Origin: Phycisphaera sp. | Lineage (GTDB): Bacteria > Planctomycetota > Phycisphaerae > Phycisphaerales > UBA1924 | Reading direction: 5' to 3' | DNA: 64,000 nt | Assembly: GCA_025916675.1 (NCBI GenBank) | Contig: CP098402.1 | Location: forward strand, 3,157,205-3,221,204 | In this document: in pieces, positions 8,261-9,523 of the stretch | How positions within the stretch are numbered: the first letter of the stretch is position 1 | Layout of the letters: each line of letters opens with the position of its first letter | Translations under genes and position numbers: made by a program | The notes under the pieces: model-generated | The model's database searches: none | Seen by the model: the letters and a program-made list of their open reading frames with translations, nothing else | What the model was told of the DNA's origin: nothing

Positions 8261-9523
8261 ATGTCCTGCGAGACCGCCTCACGCAACGCCACCGAGCCCG
8301 CCCCGGGTATCGCCCCCGGCGGCGAGGGCCTCGACGCGCGCGCCATCGCCTGCCAGATCGGCAAGGACGGCGTCCATCCTCACCTGCCCGCGACCATCCC
8401 GGGCATGGACGCCCCCTTCTACCAGGCCGGCCTGGCGGGCTACTCCGACGCGGCCATGCGGATCATCGCCCGCCGCCACGGCTGCCCGCTTTGCGTCACC
8501 GAGGCCCTGCTCGACCGCACCCTGCTGGCCGGCGGGCGGGGCTTCGCCAAGGCCGACCTGGGCGAGCTGCACGACAACGTGCCCGGAGGCGAGGACGACC
8601 ACCCCCTCGTCGGCCAGATCATGGGCAGCGACCCCGGCGAGATGGCCGCGGCGGCGATCAAGATGGTCGAACAAGGCAGCCGGCGGGCGAAGGAGTATCG
8701 ACAGATGGCCGAGAGGCACGAAGGCACGGAGGCACCCAGGCACGAAGTGGGTTCCGATCCCTCCGTGCCTTCGTGCCTCCGTGCCTCCGTGCCCTCCCAC
8801 CGAAGCTTCGCTTCGATCGACATCAACCTCGCCTGCCCGGTCAAGAAGATCGCCAAGAAGGCCCGCGGGGGCCACTGGCTGGCCGAGCCCGAGGGCGCCA
8901 TCGAAATCCTGAAAGCCGTCCGCGACGCGTTGCCCGAGAGCATGGCGCTTACGCTCAAGATCCGCCGCAGCTTCGACGACACGCCCGAGATGGCTCGCAA
9001 CTTCATGCGCATCTTCGACGCCGCATATGACCTGGGCTACGCCTGGGCCACCGTGCACGCCCGCACCGTGCAGCAGAAGTACGTCGGCCCCAGCCGGTGG
9101 GACCTGCTCCGCGACATCGTGAAACAGCGCCCCGGCCGGGTTGTCTTCGGCTCGGGCGACATCTGGAAGGTCGACGACATCTTCCGCATGATCGGCTACA
9201 CCGGCGTGTCGGGCGTCAGCGTCGCCCGCGGCTGCATCGGCAACCCCTGGATCTTCCGCCAGGCCCGCGCCATGATGGCCGGCGAGGAGCCGCGCCCCCC
9301 CACCATCGCCGAGCAGCGACAAGTGCTCGAGGACCACTTCGAACTAGCCCTACGAGTCAACGCCCACACCCGCGACCCCGAACACCACACCGGCAAGACC
9401 ATGCGCAAGTTCGCCATCCGCTTCGCCCATCACCACCCGGCAAGGGATGAGGTGCGGAAACGGTTTATTGGGGTGAAGGGGTTGGAGGATTGGCGGGGGG
9501 TGTTGGGGGAGTGGTATGGCTAG
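8261..9523 (+). CDS. tRNA-dihydrouridine synthase with in-frame repeat insertion
   Basis: 420 residues. The TIM-barrel Dus family reduces uridine in the D-loop of tRNA using FMN and NADPH. Seen: MDAPFYQAGLAGYSD at the N-terminus (M-A-P-x-x-G-x-[ST] region), DINLACPVKK at about 187-196 with the catalytic Cys192 (usually GCP), VHARTVQQKY, and SGDIW plus GVSVARGCIGNPWIF for FMN phosphate. Residues about 149-182 (Glu/Arg/His then Ser/Pro-rich) are encoded by a palindromic repeat that interrupts the family fold before the catalytic strand but keeps the frame. The DusB-like subtype is uncertain. Confidence 0.88.
   Translation: MSCETASRNATEPAPGIAPGGEGLDARAIACQIGKDGVHPHLPATIPGMDAPFYQAGLAGYSDAAMRIIARRHGCPLCVTEALLDRTLLAGGRGFAKADLGELHDNVPGGEDDHPLVGQIMGSDPGEMAAAAIKMVEQGSRRAKEYRQMAERHEGTEAPRHEVGSDPSVPSCLRASVPSHRSFASIDINLACPVKKIAKKARGGHWLAEPEGAIEILKAVRDALPESMALTLKIRRSFDDTPEMARNFMRIFDAAYDLGYAWATVHARTVQQKYVGPSRWDLLRDIVKQRPGRVVFGSGDIWKVDDIFRMIGYTGVSGVSVARGCIGNPWIFRQARAMMAGEEPRPPTIAEQRQVLEDHFELALRVNAHTRDPEHHTGKTMRKFAIRFAHHHPARDEVRKRFIGVKGLEDWRGVLGEWYG
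8706..8800. repeat. Palindromic 9-nt-unit repeat inserted inside the dus gene
   Basis: Copies of GGCACGAAG/GGCACGGAG run on the left (8715-8746) and their inverse on the right (8762-8793), with about 15 nt between. The element can fold into a long hairpin. Its length keeps the reading frame open, adding roughly 33 residues to the enzyme. Confidence 0.8.

Follow-up and report, generated by a model that had tools for sequence, protein, structure and literature searches.

Palindromic repeats that lie within protein-coding genes have been described in several bacterial groups. Rickettsia palindromic elements (RPEs) of about 150 bp encode a conserved peptide and sit in frame in unrelated genes (PMC10969869, in its accessible parts). 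REPs with GTAG/CGTC tags within coding regions are most numerous in Opitutus terrae and Rickettsia conorii and affect many DNA synthesis and repair genes; two Xanthomonas species carry a copy at nearly the same site of recB, intragenic copies lie near the 3′ ends of open reading frames (ORFs), and REP families are also present in Planctomycetes (passages on these copies in PMC3733652). Convergent G-rich heptamers (GGGAATC in Xanthomonas; also in Nostoc) form dispersed 7-nt arrays that have no known function according to the sections of PMC4692102 that deal with them. Their convergent pairs make inverted repeats near stop codons on the coding strand, 89 to 93% of the arrays are intergenic in Xanthomonas and 68% in Nostoc, and they have been discussed as G-quadruplexes (PMC4692102). 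PARCELs are protein-coding palindromic repeats that spread between genes and encode 25-residue amphipathic domains (PMC2996958, as far as its accessible text goes). An earlier note on the DNA studied here had called mobile palindromes that land in essential-type genes and are translated rarely noted, but the RPE and REP reports had already put in-frame palindromes on record (PMC10969869; PMC3733652, in the same parts).

We analyzed a palindrome in a dus gene of a 64,000-nt stretch (the window) that corresponds to positions 3157205 to 3221204 of its own genome, G000, a single contig of 3.62 Mb. It resembles RPEs in that palindromic repeats lie in frame in unrelated protein genes, here across other genomes and, in its own genome, in dus and a RarA-like tail; it differs in being an 87-bp array of 8-nt units and in that the peptides at the same slot differ between G000, L165, L166, G012, and G038. 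With REPs it shares the placement of short palindromes inside coding regions but not the GTAG/CGTC tag; the units are tandem and 7 to 8 nt long, and arrays occur in genomes without a Y1 transposase match. The resemblance to the Xanthomonas heptamers extends to dispersed 7- to 8-nt arrays at many sites in the family and to convergent octamer pairs, and the dus palindrome of one relative (G050) is built of GGGAATC itself. Here, however, the units are mostly octamers, GGCACGRA has no GGG run, and the arrays lie in frame in core enzymes and vary in unit by lineage at one slot. Like PARCELs, these are protein-coding palindromic repeats, but they consist of 8-nt units in enzyme loops.

The kind has precedents in the Rickettsia elements, the intragenic REPs, and the heptamers of Xanthomonas. 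In the open literature that we searched, no description of in-frame octamer palindromes in planctomycetes was found, and none of six unit strings occurred as text. Within that literature, what is new is that a single loop has been used repeatedly, with different units, in core enzymes of planctomycetes. We read the dus insert as a dispersed short-tandem-repeat palindrome that was copied in frame into a loop tolerant of in-frame peptides and that is predicted to be translated (probability, about 0.7).

A palindromic octamer array in frame in dus

Four 8-nt GGCACGRA-type units and four inverted units lie in frame within a Dus-family gene of the window (Table 1). The units of the purine-rich (R) arm follow the order GGCACGAA GGCACGGA GGCACCCA GGCACGAA and end in an additional G. 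The two arms, of 33 nt each, are 88% complementary, and the palindrome includes a perfect 20-nt pair (8713-8732/8760-8779). An 18-nt double unit, with up to three mismatches allowed, matched seven times in the window versus 0.70 expected, and all of the matches fell within 8707-8793. The predicted RNA fold of 8700-8810 has an energy of −67.8 kcal/mol (z, −7.5), with none of 200 shuffles reaching a value as low, and the inverted-repeat score of the loop DNA was reached by none of 300 codon shuffles. The GGCACGRA unit contains GG runs only and no GGG run for a G-quadruplex.

Table 1. Features of the dus palindrome, its host gene, and GGCAATT palindromes in the same genome (G000); positions are those of the window unless prefixed C1
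Feature	Position	Strand	Basis
In-frame palindromic octamer array, residues 151-180 (ERHEGTEAPRHEVGSDPSVPSCLRASVPSH)	8713..8799	+	repeat search, RNA fold, codon shuffles
Purine-rich (R) arm, four GGCACGRA-type units, one degenerate (GGCACCCA)	8715..8747	+	
Hairpin loop, 13 nt, TGGGTTCCGATCC	8748..8760	+	
Pyrimidine-rich (Y) arm, four inverted units YYCGTGCC	8761..8793	+	
dus, 420 aa, a DusB-like gene of the dihydrouridine synthase family that holds the insert	8261..9523	+	PF01207, E 6e-41; TIGR00737, 169 bits
DINLACPVKK motif with Cys192 (codon 8834-8836), presumed catalytic, just 3′ of the insert	8819..8848	+	alignment with NxxCP motifs of DusB 6ei9 and 1vhn
GGCAATT palindrome sites in G000	C1:345368, 1836481, 1840937, 2328705, 2604207		cluster listing

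The repeat block and its inverse that the earlier note had recognized are real, but its unit size of 9 nt is not: the period test gives 8 nt, and the G000 genome contains no exact copy of the 9-nt-period pattern GGCACGRAGGGCACGRAG. The same note counted about 33 added residues, where the palindrome spans 87 nt, or about 29 residues. It was right that the insert keeps the frame of dus, which is open throughout with translation predicted.

The insert precedes the strand of the presumed catalytic cysteine

The Pfam match of the host protein to PF01207 covers only residues downstream of the insert. Its score against TIGR00737 (DusB) is below the cut-off of 293.3 bits, and a second Dus paralogue, 34% identical, is encoded at G000:C1:3327687-3328253. 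Because the host scores below the DusB cut-off and the genome holds a second Dus, the label "essential-type" that had been attached to the gene is unsupported. The Met start of the host protein, MSCETASRNAT, is common to L164 through L166. A lone 12-nt GGCACGAAGGCA match lies about 1.5 kb upstream of the second paralogue.

The insert sits between the helix that follows GSDPGEM and the DINLACP strand, whose Cys192 we take to be the catalytic cysteine of the Dus family. In alignments with the solved Dus structures 1vhn and 6ei9, this helix-strand junction holds almost no residues. In an AlphaFold model from eight sequences, helix 143-152 and strand 185-190 are joined by residues 153-184, which are modeled with low confidence as coil. 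The model is poor (mean pLDDT, 57) and was used for secondary structure and a fold check only, not for placing the loop in three dimensions; the fold search ranked E. coli DusB (6ei9) first. Alignments and model agree with the earlier placement of the insert ahead of the strand with the presumed catalytic cysteine. They are also consistent with its being tolerated as a loop, the site being a long variable loop that is modeled as coil at very low confidence. Helix-to-strand loops of TIM barrels are found on the opposite face from the active site. By this usual layout, the Dus insert loop would sit at the barrel end distal to the active site.

One hypervariable loop carries different palindromes in related species

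Between near-identical flanks, the 102 bp of G000 at the insert correspond to 48 bp in G023, a genome of the same genus. The closest named relative, L164 (a Phycisphaerae MAG; Dus, 92% amino acid identity), has a short loop without the insert, and the loop in G000 exceeds that of the nearest relatives by 18 residues. Neither of these near relatives has the block in its dus gene, in keeping with the earlier description of it as an insert. The simplest reading of these sequences is an insertion, or a loop replacement, in the G000 lineage; loss of the insert in G023 and L164 instead is possible. No clear target duplication was recognized by eye between G000 and G023, where the loop is replaced.

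At the same slot, L165 (82% Dus identity) carries a GGCAATT palindrome and L166 (79% identity) carries a GCGACGRA palindrome. Since these enzymes remain so similar while their units are different, the turnover of the repeats is much faster than that of the enzyme. Between GQIMG and NLACP, the loop of the relatives' Dus proteins measures 39 to 147 residues (loop found in 56 of 58 loci). Together with those of seven named relatives from a Dus search (MAGs labeled Phycisphaerae, Phycisphaeraceae, Phycisphaerales, or Planctomycetota bacterium), the 56 loci gave 63 loops, of which those of G034 and L168 are identical in sequence; left out were G044 and G046 (no loop) and G008, G026, and G047 (no usable full-length match). 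Twelve of the 63 loops carry an inverted repeat reached by none of 300 codon shuffles, compared with 1 of 63 for a 201-nt control segment further on in the same genes, counts that are phylogenetically non-independent. The remaining 51 loops, those of the closest relatives among them, have no significant palindrome.

The units of the palindromes follow lineage: GGCACGRA in G000, GCGACGRA in L166, GTGACGRA in G012 and G018, GAGACGNA in G038 and G055, GGCAATT in L165, and GGGAATC in G050, plus others. Ten of the 12 palindromic loops have a best period of 7 or 8 (weakly so for G051); G050 has 14, double its 7-nt unit, and the G010 palindrome has no clear short period. The distance between arms is 19 nt in G000, 26 nt in L166, and up to 162 nt in G012. 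With 76 residues in G000 and 77 in L166, these two loops have almost the same length, and it is possible, judging from the sequences, that they are one old hairpin in which the units were replaced on both arms. These loops form a natural series in which one enzyme loop holds different repeat palindromes in related species, and the series opens to test the entry of repeat DNA into proteins, the loops that accept it, and the spread of short units without a recognized transposase.

A stable hairpin could also be a selected RNA element of dus, such as an attenuator, a translation ramp, or an mRNA stability element. The very low fold energy, the preservation of complementarity with different units in the 12 palindromic loops, and the many intergenic arrays just past stop codons would fit such a role. 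However, the palindrome is missing from most loops, the closest relatives included, it lies in the middle of the gene, its arm distance ranges from 19 to 162 nt, and the hairpin has no Rfam match at gathering thresholds. We consider a selected RNA element very improbable.

Two loci show arms that are set around other sequence. In the dus of G012 (L126/L181), the widely spaced arms flank host protein sequence, and in MqnE of G021 (L093), the arms enclose about 25 residues that resemble those of G060. Where arms enclose host sequence in this way, one-step insertion of a palindrome is no explanation. The dus gene of L170 has a second insertion of 42 residues, after FRMIAY (alignment A2, columns 346-387), outside the hypervariable loop.

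The dus units recur elsewhere in the same genomes

In G000, GGCACGRA was found at two further places, with one mismatch each. The earlier note had supposed a repeat with other copies in the genome, and these exist, but both are single arms; with no second palindromic copy among the three places in all, its picture of a discrete mobile palindrome that "landed" in dus lacks support. Reversed-pattern controls matched as often (3 and 4), and because the reversed unit resembles the unit itself, this search carries little statistical weight.

Across 61 genomes of the family, GGCACGRA has matches in 15, four of which have more than 30; reversed-pattern controls are non-zero in array-rich genomes (for example, 12 and 9 in G060 versus 47 and 56). 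GTGACGRA has any matches in 12 genomes (173 in G012 and 48 in G018) and GAGACGNA in 19 (35 in G038 and 23 in G055). Of the 12 GCGACGRA matches in G063, the genome of L166, 5 are inside dus, as are 4 of the 21 GGCAATT matches in G062, the genome of L165; GGCAATT has 25 matches in G000 and none in G023. For all seven palindromes whose unit was searched, the same genome has further copies of that unit outside dus, a result that rests on counts for G018, G038, and G055 and is thin for G000, where the control is as frequent.

This recurrence bears on a purely local origin, in which slippage and hairpin template switching would build each palindrome from the gene's own loop sequence. The hypervariability of the loop, the G010 palindrome without a clear short period, and the G012 arms set around host sequence are what such an origin would predict. 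In seven of seven cases, however, the unit matches other arrays in the same genome, and the units were therefore probably not made locally each time. We regard a purely local origin as distinctly unlikely.

Several of the G000 GGCAATT palindromes (L191, L195, L199, and L200) have no clear coding frame, and one is in reversed polarity (coding check with L203 left out). A phage collection gave no match to the array. In a plasmid collection, one record matched partially, Burkholderia stagnalis NZ_CP156686.1 (3.2-Mb replicon), with 34 nt that correspond to the pyrimidine arm (2487303-2487336; four places in the record). Similar octamer arrays may, on this sequence match, occur far outside the planctomycetes.

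Arrays interrupt other core enzymes in frame

We examined 57 GGCACGRA clusters, which are part of the listed match places in seven genomes (G019, G021, G023, G033, G034, G044, and G060) and do not give a genome-wide rate. With an open frame required over up to 240 nt on each side, 15 clusters lie in an open high-GC3 frame, in 13 ORFs (17 rows minus the opposite-strand row of L099 and the questionable L107). All 13 ORFs match NCBIfam families (E ≤ 7.5e-43). Six score above the curated cut-off; the other seven are below every curated cut-off shown, so that the names are those of best matches, and some ORFs are cut by the stretch or lengthened upstream. The best matches are PurL (two genomes), MqnE (two), MqnC, TrpE, a PLP-dependent decarboxylase, a PrpB-like lyase, MnmG, Kbl, NifS, P5C dehydrogenase, and DnaE. 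PurL of G060 contains three arrays, one of which lies within a few residues of the site of an opposite-orientation array in PurL of G021, and MqnE of G021 and G060 have an array slot in common. GTGACGRA arrays interrupt ValRS and MutS of G012, for which 20 stretches were selected at array matches. Alignments to solved homologues gap or break at the array in Kbl (14 residues), NifS/IscS, MnmG, MutS, and ValRS.

In G000 itself, the copy at C1:413371 (L008 2866-4248, − strand) is a single arm that would end a RarA-like ATPase with the C-terminal tail HHRGTEARREE; the alignment of this ATPase to the solved structure 3pvs stops before the tail. For annotation, we caution that peptides such as RHEGTEAR, SVPSCLRA, RSDEVTK, and SVTSSLRH inside enzymes may be repeat DNA and not domains.

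Successive copies of a tandem 8-nt unit fall into each of the three reading frames one after another. None of the six frames of GGCACGRA, GAGACGAA, or GCGACGRA contains a stop codon, a permissive property that is unremarkable alone, as 46% of all octamers share it. GTGACGAA, on the other hand, has a TGA in every forward frame, and in all four in-frame forward GTGACG arms (dus of G012 and of G018, ValRS, and MutS) the TGA has been lost, in the third unit. Among the G012 stretches, 15 of 31 runs of at least two units retain at least three intact units. The loss of TGA from four of four arms indicates that in-frame arms have been filtered for reading frame, which is a near-necessity and no independent proof of function. 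Persistence in genes would follow from most units being stop-free in any frame and on either strand, so that only the total length need suit the frame, and from a loop that accepts the peptide. The view of the Dus insert as tolerated repeat DNA is supported.

Polarity, gene ends, and the mode of spread

Opposite octamer arrays within 250 bp of each other are ordered R then Y in 13 of 13 pairs and in 10 of 10 with dus left out (81 sources and 106 octamer arrays, with additionally one RR and one YY pair). By analogy with the Xanthomonas GGGAATC heptamers, this convergent polarity belongs to a known kind. A stop triplet lies within 15 nt upstream of the R arm in 40 of 88 cases and downstream in 28 of 88, compared with 23% at random positions. 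GGCAATT pairs are split 4 to 1 in polarity in the G000 clusters, where one further pair is G-first, and two of four pairs in G062 are reversed. With these reversed pairs, a universal G-strand-first polarity was dropped for the heptamer and retained for the ACGRA octamers only.

The uniform polarity of the octamer pairs and the dispersal of unit copies, many near stop triplets, are what would be expected had a discrete mobile element been transposed into dus, whether of the REP/RAYT or MITE type or an analogue of the RPEs, and in-frame palindromes are on record for both RPEs and REPs. Several observations argue against this. Units, loops, and lengths vary among copies, GTAG/CTAC and CGTC/GACG are absent from 8700-8815 in either orientation, and a clear target duplication at dus was not recognized by eye. 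Matches to PF01797 (Y1 transposase) occur in 48 of the 61 genomes, but array-bearing G023 and G018 (the latter 92% complete) have none, and in G000, the genome in which the distance to arrays was checked, some 60 kb or more separates the two weak matches (97170 and 1762330) from any array place that was found. We judge transposition of a discrete element to be clearly improbable.

GxxExxY nucleases (PF13366) were considered as a mobilizing partner and rejected: 60 of 61 genomes have one to eight matches, inspection gave no sign of a relation to array number, and the three PF13366 genes of G000 are distant from its GGCACGRA places. In G033, an array at C37:95035 has one PF13366 gene (C37:93340-93684) about 1.4 kb away.

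We favor the in-frame copy of a dispersed repeat palindrome. Arrays of lineage-specific 7- to 8-nt units are scattered through the genomes of this Phycisphaerales family, often just past stop codons and sometimes within genes, and in Dus they occupy the family-specific hypervariable loop that leads from an alpha helix to the strand of the presumed catalytic cysteine. Copying would proceed by slippage within arms together with template switching or conversion between arms and between dispersed arrays, which we favor over a dedicated transposase; these steps would account for the homogeneity of the units, the complementarity of the arms, and the change of unit. The peptide and the hairpin in Dus are probably free of selected function. 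A dedicated copying enzyme is possible. More specifically, a copying activity of the Phycisphaerales could write lineage-specific octamers with fixed convergent polarity, switch its unit over time, and extend the loops of core enzymes in frame, for example by templated addition of purine-rich repeats to both 3′ ends of a break followed by joining; we hold such an activity to be unlikely.

Arrays of G023 (L076 1414-1561, L077 3283-3404, and L079 1300-1700) and one of G000 (L009 3062-3092) lie 3′ of gene ends that look alike by eye, and the hairpins may have been copied together with these paralogous gene ends. The L009 gene has a GC-type dockerin tail (NF041540).
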